A stretch of DNA of 30,724 nt from the IMG/VR virus record IMGVR_UViG_3300048916_000091, positions 1-30,724 of that record; one strand, given 5' to 3'. The notes beneath the pieces are model-generated. The model did no database searches. It saw only the letters and a list, made by a program, of their open reading frames with translations, and was not told the origin of the DNA. The stretch is from a virus. Both the position numbers and the translations under genes were made by a program. Positions 19,555 to 29,075 of this stretch are shown here, one piece after another; within the stretch, counting starts at the first letter, position 1; each line of letters opens with the position of its first letter.

Positions 19555-20024
19555 AAACATTACAACTTTCTGATGCAGACGCTCGTAAGCTTCACAAAGC
19601 TAATATACCTGGCGTAAAGGAGATTCTGGAATCTACCTGGTCAAAACAGTTCTTCAGTGCATCTATCATGGAGCGAGTAGCATCAGAAGAAGATATATTC
19701 TCCGAATTGGGCATCGACTTAAAGGACTGGACCGATAAACGAATCAGTATTGGCCTGCGTATGGATCAGATTGCCAAGGAGAAGCTAGAGTTGCTTACTC
19801 AGGTACTCAACGAGGGATGGAAACCTAACTGGAATGATTCCAGCGAGCGTAAATACTATGCCTGGTTCTACATGAATCAACCCGGCTTCCGGCTCGGCGC
19901 TACGTATTACGGTAGCGCGGATACGCTTGTCGGCTCCCGCCTTGTTTTCAAATCGGAAGGACTGTGTTTATATGCTGCCAGTCAATTTCTTTACCTATAC
20001 GAATTAGCATTCAGTTATGAATAA
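19551..20024 (+). CDS. DGR-target paralogue (third member, diverged)
   Basis: A 157-residue protein with the same layout as the two DGR targets downstream: an N-terminal helical part with an EDIFSELGIDLKDW-like segment, an amphipathic helix (RMDQIAKEKLELLTQVLNEG), WKPNW, then KYYAWFYMNQPGFRLGATYY and a VGSRLVF strand. The segment equivalent to the variable repeat is residues 111-131. It aligns to the template repeat without gaps but differs at non-adenine positions too. The tail SEGLCLYAASQFLYLYEL follows. No signal peptide; probably cytosolic. Function unknown. Confidence 0.82.
   Translation: MKTLQLSDADARKLHKANIPGVKEILESTWSKQFFSASIMERVASEEDIFSELGIDLKDWTDKRISIGLRMDQIAKEKLELLTQVLNEGWKPNWNDSSERKYYAWFYMNQPGFRLGATYYGSADTLVGSRLVFKSEGLCLYAASQFLYLYELAFSYE
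19881..19943 (+). repeat. Diverged variable repeat (VR3)
   Basis: Aligned to TR positions 7-66 without gaps, 15 of the differences fall at TR adenines and 8 fall at other bases. The core VGS codons (GTC GGC TCC) are identical. It is therefore homologous to the TR but is not a clean recent product of it. It may descend from an older template or be maintained by selection only. Confidence 0.6.
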
Positions 20025-20378: not shown

Positions 20379-21287
20379 ATGGAAGAAAACGTAAAAGTTG
20401 AAATCATGGACTTATCAACGCTAGAAGCTCAGGAAGGGGCACTTATTGATAAGCAGATTGCAACAGCTAAGAAATTCCCACGAAACATTCACAGGTGTAA
20501 GGATAATATAGTAGCTATCGCCTCTATGGATGAAGAAACAGCTAAAGAATGTGGATATGCTCTGCCGCGCGGAGGAAAAACCATTAATGGCCCCTCCGTT
20601 CATTTGGCAAGGATAGTAATACAGCAATACGGAAATCTCAGGGTAGAGGCTAAAGCGGGATTGGCTGACAAAACACACGTCATATGCCAAGCTACATGCA
20701 TTGATTTGGAAAACAACGTAGGCATTAGAGTGGAGGTAAAACGCAAAATACTTGATAAGTACGGGGTTAGATACAATGAGGATATGATTACCGTTACAGG
20801 TAGCGCTGGCGCCTCTATTGCTCTCCGAAACGCCGTTTTCAATGTGGTTCCTAAACCTGTTTGGAATGCAGGGTATAAGGCAGCACAGGAAAAGCTAATA
20901 GGCGATGTGTCCGACGAAAATAAGCTGGTTGCCAAAAGAAAAAAGACGCTGGACGAGTTCATGAAGTCATACGGCGTAGATGAAAAGGCCATACTCAAAG
21001 CGCTTGGCCTACGTGAAGCAACACAGATTAAAGCAGAAGAAATAAAGAACCTGGTGGGGCTATGGCAGGCCATTAAAGACGGCGATACCACAGTAGATGA
21101 AACCTTCTACCCTGAAAAGAAAAAGTCGAATGAAGAGTCTCCTGTTCCGCTGGAAGACATAACCGCTCTTTACGATCTGAAGAAAGATGCGCTGACGCCT
21201 GATGAAATAACCTCCGCCGATCGCATTATCAACAATAAAGAGGTGAACTCTTATAACAAGCTTTTAAAACTCCTTCAATCTAAGTAG
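20379..21287 (+). CDS. Phage recombination protein, annealase candidate
   Basis: A 302-residue soluble protein. The region GPSVHLARIVIQQYGNLRVE (about residues 71-90), the strand-rich block after it, and GSAGASIALRNAVFNVVPKP near 142-162 recur in phage proteins encoded beside exonucleases. The C-terminal half is helical (VDEKAILKALGLREATQIKA) with a charged linker. It precedes a YqaJ-type exonuclease by 2 nt. Together they would form an annealing protein plus exonuclease pair for double-strand-break recombination. RecT/Erf-type identity is inferred from context. Confidence 0.72.
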   Translation: MEENVKVEIMDLSTLEAQEGALIDKQIATAKKFPRNIHRCKDNIVAIASMDEETAKECGYALPRGGKTINGPSVHLARIVIQQYGNLRVEAKAGLADKTHVICQATCIDLENNVGIRVEVKRKILDKYGVRYNEDMITVTGSAGASIALRNAVFNVVPKPVWNAGYKAAQEKLIGDVSDENKLVAKRKKTLDEFMKSYGVDEKAILKALGLREATQIKAEEIKNLVGLWQAIKDGDTTVDETFYPEKKKSNEESPVPLEDITALYDLKKDALTPDEITSADRIINNKEVNSYNKLLKLLQSK

Positions 21288-21289
21288 CC

Positions 21290-22126
21290 ATGACAACGAA
21301 CATTGAAAGAATAGGTAACGCCACCAGTAGCGAAATAGTTGCTCTTACAACTAGCGACACGAAGGCCGGGTCATTTGGTGATCCATTTTACACCTATATC
21401 GAAGAAATCAATATGGAGAGGCTACTCGGGCGTTCTATCGACGACGAAAAGAACGCCAAACCTATGGTGTGGGGGAAAGTGTTGGAGCCATATGTTTTTG
21501 ATAAACTTGGACCAGAGTACACCTTTTCTTCCAATATCACTAAACTACACCCTACTGTATCAGGATGGGCTGGCAGCGACGACGGAACAATAGAGGGAGC
21601 TAAAAGAGGGGTGTACGATTTCAAATGCCCCTTCACATTAAAATCATTCTGCCAGCTGGTTCAACCCCTGTATGATGGTCTAACAGGAATGGCGGCGATG
21701 AACGCAATCCGCTTCGGATATACGGACCCGCGCGGACTTAAACACAAAAAGCACAAAGACGGTGAAAAGTTCTACTGGCAACTCGTTTCCAATTCCTGCA
21801 TACAAGATGTTCCCGATGCCGAGTTGATAGTATATGTGCCTTACGAATCGGAAATACCAGAGATTAAAGCAATGGTAGACGGAAATCCTGCCGCATACTT
21901 TATCTGGTCCGCAGGAACTAATGAATTGCCTTTCTTAAAAGACAACGGATACTACAAAAACCTAAATAAAATTCGGTTCGAGGTTCCGCAAGAGGATAAG
22001 GACTTCCTTACGACTCGCGTATTGGAAGCCAGCAAGTATTTCATTCCGCCTTTTCCATCCAACCAAGTAATCGAACCCTACATAGCCTCCTTCGACAACG
22101 ATGTAAAGGCAATGATTATTGAATAA
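21290..22126 (+). CDS. YqaJ-type phage exonuclease
   Basis: A 278-residue PD-(D/E)xK nuclease. Visible core elements are WGKVLEPYVFDKLGPEY with E66, WAGSDDGTIEG with the active-site acid near D97, and GVYDFKCPFTLKS with D110-x-K112. A later segment FYWQLVSNSCIQDVPDAELI matches the substrate-bridging helix and strand of YqaJ/lambda-exonuclease-like enzymes. It would resect dsDNA 5' ends to feed the upstream annealing protein. It ends 16 nt before the first DGR target gene. Confidence 0.88.
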   Translation: MTTNIERIGNATSSEIVALTTSDTKAGSFGDPFYTYIEEINMERLLGRSIDDEKNAKPMVWGKVLEPYVFDKLGPEYTFSSNITKLHPTVSGWAGSDDGTIEGAKRGVYDFKCPFTLKSFCQLVQPLYDGLTGMAAMNAIRFGYTDPRGLKHKKHKDGEKFYWQLVSNSCIQDVPDAELIVYVPYESEIPEIKAMVDGNPAAYFIWSAGTNELPFLKDNGYYKNLNKIRFEVPQEDKDFLTTRVLEASKYFIPPFPSNQVIEPYIASFDNDVKAMIIE

Positions 22127-22142
22127 TAAACACACAATAAAA

Positions 22143-22616
22143 ATGTCACTAACAAACTTGCAACTAGACTTGGCTACCGCCAGACAGGAGTATCCCAACG
22201 CCTCGGATACTATGAAAAAGATATTCGTAAAGTCTTTTCCGCCCGGCTCCTTCTCTGATGATCCTCGTGATCGCCTGCTTACATTAAGTGATGTTTTTGC
22301 AGAGAACGGAGTAGATGAAAAAGCCTTCTATTTAGCCTGTGCGGATCTGCCACAGGATGAAATAGGGTTCCGGTTGGCTAAACAAATAGCCTTGGCCTTC
22401 AACGGCGGTAAAAAGATCAATGCATTTGATGTGGATCAAAGGAAGTGGTTCCCATGGCACATAGTAGATACATCCGGCGGTTTCCGGTTCCACGACTCGG
22501 GCTGCGATAGCGCTATCTCGTTTGTCGGCTCCGGCCTTTGCTTTTTCGAAGAAAAATATTCAGACTGTGCCGGAACCAGGTTCATCGACGTATACAAACA
22601 ATTGAAAACAGCTTAA
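22143..22616 (+). CDS. DGR target protein 1
   Basis: I choose the ATG at 22143 because the longer frame begins at a TTG inside the exonuclease gene. The product is 157 residues. Residues 1-105 are a helical N-terminal module with LLTLSDVFAENGVDEKAFYL and ISK-like helix LAKQIALAFNGGKKI. Then come RKWFPWHIVDTSGGFRFHDS and a VGSGLCF strand. Residues 111-131 are encoded by the variable repeat. The C-terminal 25 residues (SDCAGTRFIDVYKQLKTA) are shared with the paralogues. No signal peptide or membrane span, so it appears cytosolic. Ligand unknown. Confidence 0.88.
   Translation: MSLTNLQLDLATARQEYPNASDTMKKIFVKSFPPGSFSDDPRDRLLTLSDVFAENGVDEKAFYLACADLPQDEIGFRLAKQIALAFNGGKKINAFDVDQRKWFPWHIVDTSGGFRFHDSGCDSAISFVGSGLCFFEEKYSDCAGTRFIDVYKQLKTA
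22474..22535 (+). repeat. Variable repeat VR1
   Basis: This 62-nt stretch aligns without gaps to TR 23023-23084. There are 14 differences and every one lies at a TR adenine (19 adenines in the interval). Outcomes are G, C and T. The 3' end shares GTCGGCTCC and GGC. About 7 nt later TTTTTC-GAA-GAAAAA (22542-22556) forms a hairpin, the position where DGR homing hairpins occur. Confidence 0.92.
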
Positions 22617-22626
22617 ACAATACATC

Positions 22627-22995
22627 ATGCCATTAGTAACATCAGTACAAGAAGCAGCCGAGTTTCACGGCGTTAATCCTGAAACAGTTATACCTGATCT
22701 GTCGGGATTCCCTGAACATTTACGTGGGCAGGCTACTGCAGCTTTGAGTCTGCTCTTAGTGAACTCTGCTATCAACGACAACAAGCCATTTGACTGGAAC
22801 AATGGTAAACCCAAAAGATATGCCTGGTGGGATCTGGAAGAGTATAAAGAAAGCCCCGGCGGTTTCCGGTTCGACGCTTCGCACTGCGCTAGCGATCTCT
22901 CGGTTGTCGGCTCCGGCTTTAGCTTTCATGAAGAAAAGGGCCTACAACATTCGGTGAAAACCTTTGAAGAACAGTGGAAGGCTTTCATAAAGTAA
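22627..22995 (+). CDS. DGR target protein 2
   Basis: A 122-residue paralogue of target 1 with a shorter N-terminal part (MPLVTSVQEAAEFHGVNPET, then LRGQATAALSLLLVNSAIND). It shares the KPKRYAWWDLEEYKESPGGF approach and VGSGFSF strand. Residues 76-98 are encoded by variable repeat 2. The C-terminal 24 residues are divergent but end in a similar helix (KTFEEQWKAFIK). It starts 10 nt after target 1 and lies directly upstream of the template repeat. No signal peptide. The family function is unknown. Confidence 0.88.
   Translation: MPLVTSVQEAAEFHGVNPETVIPDLSGFPEHLRGQATAALSLLLVNSAINDNKPFDWNNGKPKRYAWWDLEEYKESPGGFRFDASHCASDLSVVGSGFSFHEEKGLQHSVKTFEEQWKAFIK
22852..22920 (+). repeat. Variable repeat VR2
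   Basis: The 69 nt align without gaps to TR 23019-23087. All 16 differences fall at TR adenines (21 in total) and none of the other 48 positions differ. Changes include A to G, C and T. A TTCATGAA palindrome at 22925-22932 follows. The pattern is the signature of adenine-directed mutagenic retrohoming. Confidence 0.96.
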
Positions 22996-23007
22996 AATAA
23001 CAGGTTG

Positions 23008-23131
23008 TGTGCAGGAAGAGCCCCAGCAGTTTCCAGTTCAACGAATCGAACTACGATAACGATAACTCGAATGTCGGCTCCAGCTATGCTTAATTTTTTT
23101 GCCTGCACAGGCCTTGCCACTTGGCAAAAAA
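23008..23131 (+). ncRNA. Putative structured TR RNA
   Basis: The TR is bracketed by TGTGCAGG (23008-23015) and CCTGCACA (23102-23109), an 8-bp inverted repeat that would close a stem around it. Downstream are alternative stems: GCCTG-CA-CAGGC (23101-23112), TTGCC-ACTT-GGCAA (23114-23127), and TTTTTTGCC/GGCAAAAAA (23095-23103 with 23123-23131). DGR template RNAs need structured flanks for cDNA priming. The ends and function are inferred. Confidence 0.6.
23019..23087 (+). repeat. DGR template repeat (TR)
   Basis: The 69-nt donor begins AGCCCCAGCAG and ends CAGCTAT. Read in the target frame it encodes SPSSFQFNESNYDNDNSN then VGSSY. It is rich in AAC/AAT/AGC codons at the exact positions that vary in the two targets, the classic DGR design for maximal amino-acid diversity without stops. 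It lies in the gap between target 2 and the reverse transcriptase and is not itself part of a sensible gene. Confidence 0.96.
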
Positions 23132-23199
23132 TGATACTCTGAGAGGCTATTTAGTATCCCGTTCTGGTAGAGAAAGGCAGCCGATCCAAAGCAAAGCGT

Positions 23200-24252
23200 A
23201 TGAAACGGATAAATAATCTATATCAAAGCATTTGTTCCATTGAAAACCTTCAATTGGCTGATGAAAAAGCCAGGAAAAGGAAGGCATATCAATATGGTGT
23301 TAAGGTCCATGATAGGAACAAAGAAGTGAATATACAGGCCCTACACGATATGCTGGTGAATAAGACGTATAAAACATCTCCATACACCACATTCAAGGTT
23401 TATGAACCAAAAGAACGCCTTGTATTTCGCCTTCCATACTTTCCTGACCGGATTACGCACCATGCAGTAATGAATATTTTGGAGCCAATATTCCTTTCCG
23501 TCTTCACGGCTGACACCTATAGCTGTATCAAGGGAAAGGGTATTCATGCTGCTGCTAATGGCGTAAAATCAGCACTTAAAGATGTCCCCGGAACAAAGTA
23601 TTGTTTGAAACTGGATATTACTAAGTTCTACCCCTCCGTTGATCACGACATACTTAAATCTTTGCTTAGGCGTAAGATAAAGGACCGTGATCTGCTGTGG
23701 TTGCTGGATGAAATAATAGACAGCGCCGAAGGGTTACCGATCGGCAACTATCTGAGTCAGTACCTGGCAAACTTCTACCTGACCTATTTTGACCACTGGC
23801 TAAAAGAGGTAAAGGGTATCAAATACTACTTCCGTTACGCCGACGACTTGGTTATTCTATCTGACTCCAAAGAAGATCTTCATATCCTTCTGAAAGAAAT
23901 CACAATCTACCTGTCTACAGAATTAAATCTACAGGTAAAAGGCAACTGGCAGATATTCCCGGTAGAAAGCAGAGGCATAGATTTCGTTGGATACGTCTTT
24001 TTTCATACCCACACTCGCCTGCGCAAGAGCATAAAGAAAAAATTTTCTCGCAAAATGGCGACTAACCCGAATAAACAATCTGTAGCCGCATACTATGGGT
24101 GGGCAAAACATGCCAATTGTAATCACCTACTTAAAAAACTATGCAGCTATGAACAACTTCAAGGATTTAGGAATAACAGCAGACGCAAAAGGATTCAAGG
24201 GCGACAAAATAAAACTGGATCGTGTGATCAACCTGGAAATAAGAGTGGTTGA
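23200..24252 (+). CDS. DGR reverse transcriptase
   Basis: A 350-residue reverse transcriptase of the DGR/group-II-like class. Visible motifs: RLVFRLPYFPDRITHHAVMN near 73-92, the catalytic KLDITKFYPSVDHD with D139, GLPIGNYLSQ at 178-187 (the DGR-type motif 4), and YADD at 213-216 with both catalytic Asp. FVGY follows in the thumb. It copies the upstream TR RNA with adenine errors. The last 35 residues (after LLKKLC, basic and low in complexity) overlap the next gene in another frame, so the useful protein may end near residue 317. It begins 112 nt after the TR. Confidence 0.95.
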   Translation: MKRINNLYQSICSIENLQLADEKARKRKAYQYGVKVHDRNKEVNIQALHDMLVNKTYKTSPYTTFKVYEPKERLVFRLPYFPDRITHHAVMNILEPIFLSVFTADTYSCIKGKGIHAAANGVKSALKDVPGTKYCLKLDITKFYPSVDHDILKSLLRRKIKDRDLLWLLDEIIDSAEGLPIGNYLSQYLANFYLTYFDHWLKEVKGIKYYFRYADDLVILSDSKEDLHILLKEITIYLSTELNLQVKGNWQIFPVESRGIDFVGYVFFHTHTRLRKSIKKKFSRKMATNPNKQSVAAYYGWAKHANCNHLLKKLCSYEQLQGFRNNSRRKRIQGRQNKTGSCDQPGNKSG

Positions 24253-24442
24253 TTTTAAGGTAGAAAAGTCAAAGGTTAACGCCGGCAATTGCTTACACAT
24301 GCAGATAGAGTTAAACGGAATAGAGCATGTGATATTTACCGGATCATCGGCGCTGATCAGCATGATTCAGCAGGTACCAAAAGAAAAGCTCCCCTTTAGA
24401 ACCACAATTGTTCGTAAGGATAGACGAGTCGAATTTTCATAA
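24149..24442 (+). CDS. Small protein following the DGR reverse transcriptase
   Basis: A frame opens at 24095, but the ATG at 24149 starts a better-behaved 97-residue protein (MNNFKDLGITADAKGFKGDK). It is strand-rich: IKLDRVINLEIRVVDFKVEK, CLHMQIELNGIEHVIFTGSS, then a short helix and a final basic strand. That arrangement resembles a small OB- or nucleic-acid-binding fold, which is inference. It overlaps the reverse transcriptase by 104 nt in a different frame. It does not look like the helical Avd accessory protein of other DGRs. Confidence 0.75.
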   Translation: MNNFKDLGITADAKGFKGDKIKLDRVINLEIRVVDFKVEKSKVNAGNCLHMQIELNGIEHVIFTGSSALISMIQQVPKEKLPFRTTIVRKDRRVEFS

Positions 24443-25871: not shown

Positions 25872-26604
25872 TACGCTGCAATTCATCGAAAGGGCCTTTT
25901 CGCAGCTGCCGGCAGTAGATGTAACCAGGAAGATGAAGCAGGTTCTTTTCAACATTCATGTAATCACTGGTTGGCAAATGCCTGCCGATGAATTTCACAA
26001 ACAGGCCCTTTACAGCCAGTTTGAAAAGAAACTACTGGAAGATTACGGTAGCCTTAACGCACAGGAGATAGAATTTGCTTTTCGTTCTGGCGGCACTACA
26101 ATAGAGGATTGGGGTAAGGTATTCAACCTTAACCTGCTTGATAAGGTATTAATCCCCTACCTGCACCGCCGGGCATCCGTTAGGGAGATGACCGAGAAAC
26201 AAAGGGTTGATTTGCCGTCTTTGCCCGGTCCGGCTGCCGACTGGAAAGAAATGTGCGAATACTACTACCAGCAATTCTTAACCGGCACCTATAACCTTTC
26301 CTTGTGGCCGTGGCAGATGTATGATGAATTTGTAAGATGCGAAATGATGGCAGAAGATTTCTATACCAACGCGGTCAACTCAGCAGAAACGCATCTACGA
26401 GCTAAATACGTTGGCCAAATAACGAGGGAAGAGCTTTGTGGCAATAAAGTATCAGTTAGAGAATTACAAGCCAAAATTGAGGCTATAAATGCCAAACAGG
26501 GCAATGAGGTTATTTACTTGGCTAAGAAGATGGCAGTACGTTACCTCTACCAGCAGGCTAAGAAACAAAACATTGAACACTTATTCGTAAAAACAGAAGA
26601 ATGA
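25750..26604 (+). CDS. Replication-associated protein candidate
   Basis: A 284-residue soluble, helical protein (METNLRDELSRMPEKAQGHS). Core segments are ERAFSQLPAVDVTRKMKQVL, QMPADEFHKQALYSQFEKKL, IEFAFRSGGTTIEDWGKVFN and NLLDKVLIPYLHRRA. It overlaps the initiator by 122 nt in another frame, and its first 40 residues may be a consequence of that. The location suggests a helicase-loader-like or primosome role. No catalytic motif is visible. Confidence 0.75.
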   Translation: METNLRDELSRMPEKAQGHSVSLTTSKQTTVLLTKEEEAVNTLQFIERAFSQLPAVDVTRKMKQVLFNIHVITGWQMPADEFHKQALYSQFEKKLLEDYGSLNAQEIEFAFRSGGTTIEDWGKVFNLNLLDKVLIPYLHRRASVREMTEKQRVDLPSLPGPAADWKEMCEYYYQQFLTGTYNLSLWPWQMYDEFVRCEMMAEDFYTNAVNSAETHLRAKYVGQITREELCGNKVSVRELQAKIEAINAKQGNEVIYLAKKMAVRYLYQQAKKQNIEHLFVKTEE

Positions 26605-27746
26605 CTTATGTGGATAATCCCTTCAAATCTCCCCGGCTGCTTTCAATATGCACCGGAATACGCGGCATCGAAAGAGGAATTGAACGAGCGATTGGCTCAA
26701 TCAGAGCCGCTGCTTATGTGGAAATCGAAGCCTTTATCATCGAAAACCTTCTGGCTGGCATGGAAGCGGGTATGGTGGATGCAGCACCTATCTGGGCGAA
26801 TATTAAAACCTTCGATGCAGAGCCGTTTTGTAATTGCGTGGACGGAATCATTGGCGGATACCCGTGCCAACCATTTAGCACCGCAGGAGAACGAAGAGGC
26901 ACAGAAGACCCAAGACACCTTTGGCCGTATGTTGAGGGGATCATTCGCACAATCGGACCTATTTGGGGATTCTTTGAAAACGTCAGCGGACACCTTACCC
27001 TTGGATTCGATCAGGTTTATCAAAGTCTTTCAGGAATGGACTATGCAGTTGAGGCGGGAATCTTTACAGCGGAGGAAGTTGGCGCGCCACATCAGAGAGA
27101 ACGGCTATTCATCCTCGCAATTAGAAAAGACTGCTTGGCGTACACCCACGGCGCAAGCGCCAGGAATCAATCCAGATCGCCTAGATGGGGAAGCGGGCAG
27201 TCGGATGTACGACAAGCAGACAGGACGATTAGCCCAGTACGGTCTGGATCAACAAGTTCATATGTGGCACACCCCGTTAGTTCAGGACAGCCGCAACAGC
27301 GGAACGATGGAAAGCAGGCAGAAGAGAGTAACACAGGAGTTAGCTACTCAGGTCCAGAATTGGGGGACTCCACGAGTAGCAACAAATCAGATGATAGGCA
27401 ATACGGAAGCTCCAGAGAAGAGCAGACTGGAGGATCAGGTTCTGAAATGGTGTACCCCAGTAGCGACAATGTACAAGGGATCATCGGAGGGAGCATTAAT
27501 TCGCAAGGATGGGAAAGAGAGAAGCATAGATCGCCTGGACCTGGTGGTCCAGGCGATCTATGGCCAGCAAGACCAGGAGAACAGCAATACGACTGGGAAG
27601 CGCCGCACACAATTGAACCCGGCCTGGGTATTACAGTTGATGGGTACAACTTTAGAGAAGACCTTCTTCGTGCCGCTGGCAACTCAGTGGTTGAGCAAAC
27701 AGCAGAACTCGCTTTCAGAACCCTCTTAAAAAAACATGGTTTATGA
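26601..27746 (+). CDS. C5-cytosine DNA methyltransferase
   Basis: A 381-residue enzyme that methylates cytosine, probably protecting phage DNA from restriction. Motif I is LLSICTGIRGIERGIER (13-29), motif IV GYPCQPFSTAG with catalytic C89, motif VI FFENVSG (124-130), motif VIII GAPHQRERLF (161-170), and motif X AAGNSVVEQTAELAF near the C-terminus. Residues 180-330, the target-recognition region, are Ser/Gly/Gln-rich and low in complexity. A second long frame is open across nearly the whole gene. The sequence recognised cannot be told. Confidence 0.92.
   Translation: MTYVDNPFKSPRLLSICTGIRGIERGIERAIGSIRAAAYVEIEAFIIENLLAGMEAGMVDAAPIWANIKTFDAEPFCNCVDGIIGGYPCQPFSTAGERRGTEDPRHLWPYVEGIIRTIGPIWGFFENVSGHLTLGFDQVYQSLSGMDYAVEAGIFTAEEVGAPHQRERLFILAIRKDCLAYTHGASARNQSRSPRWGSGQSDVRQADRTISPVRSGSTSSYVAHPVSSGQPQQRNDGKQAEESNTGVSYSGPELGDSTSSNKSDDRQYGSSREEQTGGSGSEMVYPSSDNVQGIIGGSINSQGWEREKHRSPGPGGPGDLWPARPGEQQYDWEAPHTIEPGLGITVDGYNFREDLLRAAGNSVVEQTAELAFRTLLKKHGL
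26608..27729 (+). CDS. Overlapping frame-2 ORF within the methyltransferase (dual coding candidate)
   Basis: A 373-codon frame, offset by one, overlaps almost the entire methyltransferase gene. Its translation is not random-looking: it contains SDLFGDSLKTSADTLPLDSI, then four W-x-T-P repeats (AWRTPTAQA, MWHTPLVQD, NWGTPRVAT and KWCTPVATM), and LNPAWVLQLMGTTLEKTFFV. The LNPxWV-LMG and WPTP-type segments resemble parts of phage methyltransferase proteins I know of. This could be a genuine second protein, a remnant of an older frame, or an artefact of the low-complexity DNA. A 157-codon antisense frame is also open here, which argues for caution. Confidence 0.45.
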   Translation: MWIIPSNLPGCFQYAPEYAASKEELNERLAQSEPLLMWKSKPLSSKTFWLAWKRVWWMQHLSGRILKPSMQSRFVIAWTESLADTRANHLAPQENEEAQKTQDTFGRMLRGSFAQSDLFGDSLKTSADTLPLDSIRFIKVFQEWTMQLRRESLQRRKLARHIRENGYSSSQLEKTAWRTPTAQAPGINPDRLDGEAGSRMYDKQTGRLAQYGLDQQVHMWHTPLVQDSRNSGTMESRQKRVTQELATQVQNWGTPRVATNQMIGNTEAPEKSRLEDQVLKWCTPVATMYKGSSEGALIRKDGKERSIDRLDLVVQAIYGQQDQENSNTTGKRRTQLNPAWVLQLMGTTLEKTFFVPLATQWLSKQQNSLSEPS

Positions 27747-28622: not shown

Positions 28623-29075
28623 ATGAACGAAGAGGTAAAGATAAAAGTGGTTGAAATCGTAGCTCAGCAAACCGGCGTGGACTATATCGACATCATGACT
28701 CACACCAGGAAAACTTCAGAACAAAGACACTTGGCAATGTACATCATGAAGAAGATTTTGAATGTCGGGTGGTCTGAAATAGGACGATTCTTTAAGTATA
28801 ATCACGCTACCGTAATACATGGATGCGAAAGTGTTGAAAACAGGATAGAAACCGACTATGTATCCCTTCAGAACTATAAGCATATCAGAGAATCAGTAAA
28901 GCAAATAGACATAGAGGATAAAACAGAAAGCGCTATCAGTGCTGAGCTGTTCCGAAAATACGCTGAATTAAAGCACTCTGTGAGGCGCCTTAAGGAGGAA
29001 AACGAAAACCTTAAAGAACGGGTAAAGATCCTTGAATCCGCATTATCAATAGAGCAAAAACTATCGATCGCATGA
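28623..29075 (+). CDS. DnaA domain-IV-like DNA-binding protein with coiled coil
   Basis: A 150-residue protein. Residues 1-80 match the C-terminal DnaA-box-binding domain of DnaA: KIKVVEIVAQQTGVDYIDIM, then TRKTSEQRHLAMYIMKKILN, then GRFFKYNHATVIHGCESVE. HATVIHGC is the signature DHTTVLHAC loop that contacts the DnaA box. No AAA+ ATPase domain is present. Residues 105-145 are a coiled coil (EENENLKERVKILE). It could bind DnaA boxes to steer phage replication or block host initiation. Confidence 0.85.
   Translation: MNEEVKIKVVEIVAQQTGVDYIDIMTHTRKTSEQRHLAMYIMKKILNVGWSEIGRFFKYNHATVIHGCESVENRIETDYVSLQNYKHIRESVKQIDIEDKTESAISAELFRKYAELKHSVRRLKEENENLKERVKILESALSIEQKLSIA

Follow-up and report, generated by a model that had tools for sequence, protein, structure and literature searches.

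Which proteins does the retroelement in this viral genome diversify, with what machinery, and to what end? The window, i.e., the whole stretch of DNA analyzed, is the IMG/VR virus record IMGVR_UViG_3300048916_000091 (30,724 bases); below, the term sibling contig denotes IMGVR 3300048926_000118, another contig of this phage. A template repeat (TR) adjoining a reverse transcriptase (RT) gene is matched by two variable repeats, VR1 and VR2, in two tandem genes (Table 1), and there is hardly any doubt that the element works as a diversity-generating retroelement (DGR), that is, a system of a known kind.

Table 1. Features of the DGR locus and of adjacent genes in the window
Feature	Coordinates	Strand	Evidence
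Third target-family member, 157 aa	19551..20024	+	phrog_11581, E 1e-17; tblastn paralogue of targets 1 and 2; AlphaFold2 pLDDT 90.9
VR3, old or foreign variable repeat, TR match lost	19886..19944	+	14 A and 8 non-A mismatches
Neighbor, phrog_3657 (function unknown)	20379..21287	+	phrog match
Neighbor, YqaJ/exonuclease-like recombination nuclease	21290..22126	+	phrog_149 exonuclease, E 1e-6; weak Pfam YqaJ match
Target gene 1, 157 aa	22143..22616	+	ORF; paralogue; family alignment
VR1	22474..22535	+	14 differences from TR, all at A
Target gene 2, 122 aa	22627..22995	+	ORF; paralogue; family alignment
VR2	22853..22920	+	16 differences from TR, all at A
5' arm of TR-enclosing stem, GGTTGTGTGCAGG	23003..23015	+	Covariation, 63 distinct sequences; arms not copied into VRs
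Template repeat (TR)	23020..23087	+	Repeat scan and comparison with VRs
3' arm of TR-enclosing stem, CCTGCACAGGCC	23102..23113	+	Covariation
Structured spacer, TR to RT	23115..23194	+	Resembles Rfam RT-18 / RT-17 RNA
DGR reverse transcriptase, 350 aa, YADD, GLPIGNYLSQ	23200..24252	+	RVT_1, phrog_1423; nearest relatives are DGR-cassette RTs
Accessory protein, 97 aa, predicted OB fold, overlapping the RT 3' end	24149..24442	+	phrog_19665; model pLDDT 90.9

Read from the sequence, the divergence of the two VRs is strictly adenine-directed. Within the 62 nt of VR1, 14 of the 19 TR adenines are changed, and within the 68 nt of VR2, 16 of the 20, with no differences at any other position; under random placement, the probability that all differences fall on adenines is 4e-10 for VR1 and 3e-12 for VR2. 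Scanning the window on both strands reveals no other equally good match to the TR. The original prediction, which described one template and two targets, with all 30 differences at TR adenines and the remaining aligned bases identical, is exact in its counts, and there is indeed one TR with two currently matched VRs; the TR length of 69 nt that it gave is roughly true for the match to VR2 but not for the shorter match to VR1, and one static sequence does not warrant the phrase "direct evidence" of mutagenesis. Both VRs are located, as had also been proposed, in frame, without stop codons and at corresponding places of two paralogous genes, which the ORFs and the family alignment confirm, and the TR itself is non-coding. 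In the target frame FQFNESNYDNDNSNVGSSYA, none of the TR codons can be converted to a stop by changes at adenines. Among 154 TR/VR pairs, adenine is replaced by G in 1202 cases, by T in 654 and by C in 336, counts that come from a detection filter biased against non-adenine changes.

The YADD and GLPIGNYLSQ motifs, previously noticed in a reverse transcriptase located after the TR, are seen in the translation, and the assignment agrees with the matches of this protein to Pfam RVT_1 (E 3e-19) and phrog_1423 (E 4e-128). Almost all of its nearest relatives are accompanied by TR/VR pairs. In the RT tree, DGRs of the tandem-cassette type and those of the tail type do not form two clean clades, so that the type of target was probably switched more than once.

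The gene for a putative partner protein follows the RT gene in 77 of the 78 viral and in 60 of the 78 genomic RT loci, the latter gathered from genome contigs with the RT as the query. In relatives, this ORF is read in a different frame from the RT gene and usually extends across the RT stop with an overlap of about 14 nt; in the Bacteroides phage BT-TP2, the respective domain is fused to the C-terminus of the RT, and in hankyphage p00 and BS-TP4, it is contained within the RT reading frame. The fusion and the gene overlap suggest that this protein works with the RT. The predicted order of secondary structure elements is strand-strand-strand-helix-strand-strand, and comparison of the model with the OB domains of SSB, PriB and RuvBL yields Z scores of 5-6.7 (4.6 for PRD1 P12), values in the range typical of common structural arrangements. 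At the sequence level, no match is found. Judging from the model, the accessory protein has a predicted OB fold and is probably a single-strand-binding protein. Avd is not universal among DGRs, and no avd gene is found here: there is no ORF of at least 80 aa between target gene 2 and the RT gene, and none of the genes scanned has an Avd-type match. In one Bacteroidales RT clade (L140-L159), the OB gene is shifted downstream by about 400 nt, and the VR found upstream is about 120 nt long, with no target-family gene nearby.

The TR is enclosed by a stem that consists of GGU, a bulge and then 8 bp. In an alignment of 63 distinct sequences, pairing holds in 96.1% of the cells and both-sided changes occur in 8 of the 11 pairs; the covariation score is 0.546, compared with 0.224 +/- 0.014 for shuffled and at most 0.207 for slid alignments. 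The overall thermodynamic stability of the TR-spacer RNA is ordinary relative to shuffled sequences (z 0.43), the stem being detected by the covariation test only. In nearly all of 101 pairs, the VR homology begins after the 5' arm and stops before the 3' arm, which indicates that the arms are not copied. The spacer in the window matches Rfam RT-18 with 37.5 bits, below the gathering threshold of 41.3 (E 5e-5), and in one relative (L172), an RT-17 match above the gathering threshold is located just 5' of the RT. A spacer is responsible for RT recruitment in BPP-1, where a 5' motif halts the enzyme (PMC12875486). By analogy with this arrangement, the stem may delimit cDNA synthesis. With respect to the 3' side of the target, 100 stretches downstream of VRs contain no stem-loop just 3' of the VR (mean best hairpin 4.0 bp against 3.9 bp in shuffled sequences, none of at least 7 bp).

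The family to which the targets belong is a regular component of such loci. At least one member is encoded directly upstream of the RT in all 62 viral RT loci with enough upstream sequence, and at least two in 58 of these; among 70 RT loci from bacterial genomes, the closest of which come from Bacteroidota, 45 contain at least one target gene and 44 at least two. The gene order target 1-target 2-TR-RT-OB recurs among the relatives. Three relatives (L055, L076 and L101) possess extra VRs at a distance of several kilobases from the cassette, before or after the RT. Target-family genes are also present on three viral contigs, which may be incomplete, where no RT was found (L087, L088 and L092); the family may have a function independent of diversification.

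The targets appear to be short, mostly helical proteins without a match to C-type lectins. For the third paralogue, AlphaFold2 modeling on the basis of 117 family members (pTM 0.84) predicts a mainly helical scaffold with two strands that form a beta hairpin (residues 102-107 and 114-120), followed by a low-confidence loop and C-terminal helices; the VR-like stretch, approximately residues 112-132, corresponds to the hairpin and the loop. A Foldseek search started with this model identifies no PDB match (best E 5.4), a result with which a degenerate lectin is still compatible, and the good matches in BFVD are uncharacterized phage proteins only. There is no convincing match to the family in Pfam, NCBIfam, PADLOC or solved structures, and no homologues were found on plasmids. 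Almost none of the 117 members has a signal peptide or a membrane segment: a hydrophobic 19-residue stretch scores above 1.6 in three of them, and a lipobox-like cysteine is present in one.

The modeled paralogue, which is encoded 2.1 kb upstream of target gene 1, was overlooked in the original prediction, as were the early-region character of the targets, the OB-fold partner and the TR-enclosing stem; a tblastn search identifies the third gene as a paralogue of both targets. It contains a counterpart of the VRs, VR3. The eight non-adenine changes in VR3 imply that the TR of the window no longer maintains it, and no TR among the sampled relatives fits it cleanly, the best one leaving 6 non-adenine mismatches in 55 nt. 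VR3 is therefore not an active target but, on the sequence comparison, an old or foreign VR that is now drifting.

In the window, the target genes are located beside the phrog_3657 gene, the product of which could be recombinase-like by position and inference only, and the exonuclease-like gene, upstream of a gene containing a DnaA domain; the terminase, portal, protease and capsid genes are on the opposite strand. The DnaA-domain gene (28623-29075) encodes a 150-aa protein of the early region with the C-terminal DNA-binding domain of DnaA (Pfam Bac_DnaA_C, E 2e-14). Elsewhere in the window, two long overlapping frames on the plus strand (26601-27746 and 26608-27729) each have phage homologues, one being a C5 cytosine methyltransferase (phrog_363, E 1e-45) and the other matching phrog_1008 (E 4e-13) and phrog_27243, so that dual coding across 1.1 kb is possible.

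RTs of this lineage write tail proteins as well: the related RTs of crAss-like phages, with 50-58% identity, adjoin tail genes. When such tail-DGR phages were searched for the target family, remote members were identified. Seven phages combine an RT with a family member, and in every one of them the RT-adjacent TR matches the remote family gene over 63-118 nt with no non-adenine mismatches (cr53_1, 64 nt with 12 adenine changes; cr56_1, 65 nt with 16; cr52_1, 63 nt with 12; cr115_1, 65 nt with 16; LoVEphage, 113 nt with 19; Versailles, 107 nt with 14; BT-TP2, 118 nt with 13). A tail VR of the same TR is seen in all six phages checked for one, namely the seven apart from cr115_1. The remote genes are annotated as hypothetical or not at all, except for that of Versailles, labeled "tail protein". 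The latter gene is flanked by those for a NinB/Orf recombination mediator and a replisome organizer. In LoVEphage, methyltransferase genes are close to the family member, and in BT-TP2, the family member directly follows C1/cro-like regulators. For the TR of the window, neither a tail VR nor a further VR of any kind is found in the approximately 50 kb made up of the window and 19 kb upstream on the sibling contig. The contig of locus L089 also carries a tail-type DGR, but this distant element does not write the target-family gene of that phage. The BT-TP2 gene is unannotated and split by the arbitrary ends of the record (PQ571279.1; L190:44838-45224 and 1-324), and its junction contains a duplicated stretch (KALNEGWEPQF...) that perhaps represents the terminal redundancy of the assembly. 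A strict search of TR flanks in the tail-DGR phages detects a clear stem only in Versailles; the flanks in cr53_1, cr56_1 and cr52_1 look compatible with a stem by eye, which is not counted as evidence.

Phage DGRs are usually read as receptor-switching devices. The location of the present targets among recombination and replication genes, together with the lack of signal peptides and membrane segments, argues for a different reading, namely that they are probably early, intracellular binding proteins rather than virion components. Their randomized surface, with the variable stretch on the predicted beta hairpin and loop, would then meet variable factors of the host or of competitors, in counter-defense or in inter-phage conflict. 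Counter-defense is the most likely specific role, albeit with somewhat less than an even chance: the targets have no PADLOC match, and the neighboring genes are compatible with other early functions.

One alternative is that the targets act in lysogeny or superinfection immunity, as antirepressor-like proteins or exclusion factors, rather than against host defense. The position of the BT-TP2 gene next to the C1/cro-like genes and the abundance of cassettes in loci from bacterial genomes fit this scenario, but the family is also present in crAss-like phages and in other genomes is encoded amid genes for recombination or replication, at a large distance from regulators, which makes this alternative unlikely. 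Quite unlikely, too, are virion-associated or injected targets, such as minor tail or adhesin subunits that a DGR would vary for receptor switching as in BPP-1. Although in related phages the TRs in question also write tail proteins, the tail and early VR peptides of BT-TP2 are nearly interchangeable, and the Versailles gene carries its "tail protein" label, the latter gene is located between recombination and replication genes and that of BT-TP2 beside regulators, the targets in the window are among the early genes on the strand opposite to the head and terminase genes, signal peptides and membrane segments are lacking, and the phages with tail DGRs possess a separate tail target.

The sibling contig is 100% identical to the window over 12.5 kb, both VRs included, so that the phage itself provides no evidence of turnover; the identity may reflect an origin of the two contigs in the same or a related sample. 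Among relatives, one pair of contigs (L077 and L078) shows 25 differences over 13.1 kb, 11 of which are at TR-adenine positions within 172 nt of VR, compared with 14 in the other 12,867 nt, and in another pair (L019 and L022), 21 of the 25 differences are at such positions; the TR is unchanged in both pairs, as it is in most near-identical pairs. Thus, activity of the family is well supported by sequence comparison, and the earlier description of the DGR as "active-looking" is supported by near-identical relatives, which differ mainly at TR adenines in their VRs; the two contigs of this phage have identical VRs. Non-adenine differences as frequent as those at adenines, or frozen VRs in relatives, which the original prediction had named as counterevidence, are not what the family displays. 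That the element is inactive in this phage and VR1 and VR2 are fixed relics, as the identity of the two contigs and the decay of VR3 might suggest, is very unlikely given the absence of non-adenine changes in VR1 and VR2, the intact RT and OB reading frames, the intact stem and the apparent activity of the relatives.

Taken together, these observations are likely to be best explained by a phage-borne DGR of a Bacteroidota type that diversifies early intracellular binders. The TR transcript, looped by the conserved stem and flanked by the structured spacer, would be copied by the RT with errors opposite adenines, assisted by the translationally coupled OB-fold protein, which is probably single-strand-binding and would act in place of Avd, and the cDNA would then replace VR1 and VR2 in the two tandem early genes. 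The sequence itself shows the adenine-directed divergence, the arrangement of the genes, the covariation of the stem and the overlap between the OB and RT genes, whereas we infer the retrohoming step and the roles of the stem and the OB-fold protein from BPP-1 and from comparative data. More broadly, and only tentatively, Bacteroidota phages might deploy a single DGR family with two arms, one for tail adhesins and a general second one for a single early intracellular family of helical proteins, which would constitute a hypervariable, antibody-like anti-defense repertoire; in the lineage of the window, the second arm alone would be left, tandemly duplicated and combined with an RT, an OB-fold partner and a stem-clamped template. 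An early, predicted non-lectin family shared by the tandem cassettes and the tail-DGR phages would provide one candidate identity for unexplained remote VRs and a testable candidate for an antibody-like repertoire inside the host cell, and why phages randomize an intracellular protein becomes a question that can be addressed in isolates or inducible prophages. How the cDNA is defined and protected in DGRs that lack Avd may be approached through two new handles, the OB-fold partner and the TR-enclosing stem.

Compared with the archetypal DGR of BPP-1, the window contains the same core, i.e., a TR, VRs, an RT with the GxxxSQ motif, mutation at TR adenines and a structured spacer between the TR and the RT. 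A stem-loop 3' of the VR is a further feature of BPP-1. The window differs in that no such stem-loop is detectable, no avd was found and an OB-fold protein follows the RT instead, the TR is embedded in a covarying stem, the VR lies within the gene, followed by about 25-30 codons, and the targets belong to the early region and are predicted not to be lectins. The spacer resembles the Rfam RT-17 and RT-18 RNAs (RF03020, RF03021), but that match excludes the TR-enclosing stem. According to a large survey (Roux et al. 2021, PMC8144416), VR regions with an annotation are systematically C-type lectins, and in three virus-dominated DGR clades most of the viral targets are tail proteins. The tail protein is likewise the described target of the DGRs of crAss-like phages (PMC7290462, PMC11054128, PMC12386605), in which the TR is beside the RT as it is in the window; however, four of these DGRs also write a remote early member of the present family, whereas a tail VR is missing from the roughly 50 kb examined for the window. 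Remote VRs as a phenomenon are already known: Benler et al. 2021 (PMC8008677) described, for the Quimbyvirus DGR, an additional target that is not a structural protein and is encoded close to methyltransferases, and a 2025 Nature paper (PMC12629997) presented four species of gut prophages in which a remote second VR is located near counter-defense genes. These cases share with the present ones a second VR in a non-structural gene, and the LoVEphage target belongs to the present family and is TR-written. Both reports deal with single cases, one target being called a C-type lectin, whereas the remote targets of the seven phages described here form one family, whose members are the nearby targets, present as tandem copies, in the window and in about 60 viral relatives. 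In the open-licence literature searched, we found no description of a single family of remote targets, of such a family as the tandem targets in a Bacteroidota cassette that is widespread or of the predicted non-lectin fold, nor of the OB-fold partner and the TR-enclosing stem of DGRs. Thus, the core mechanism is that of an ordinary DGR, and what is new is the partner protein, the structure of the template and, above all, the targets.
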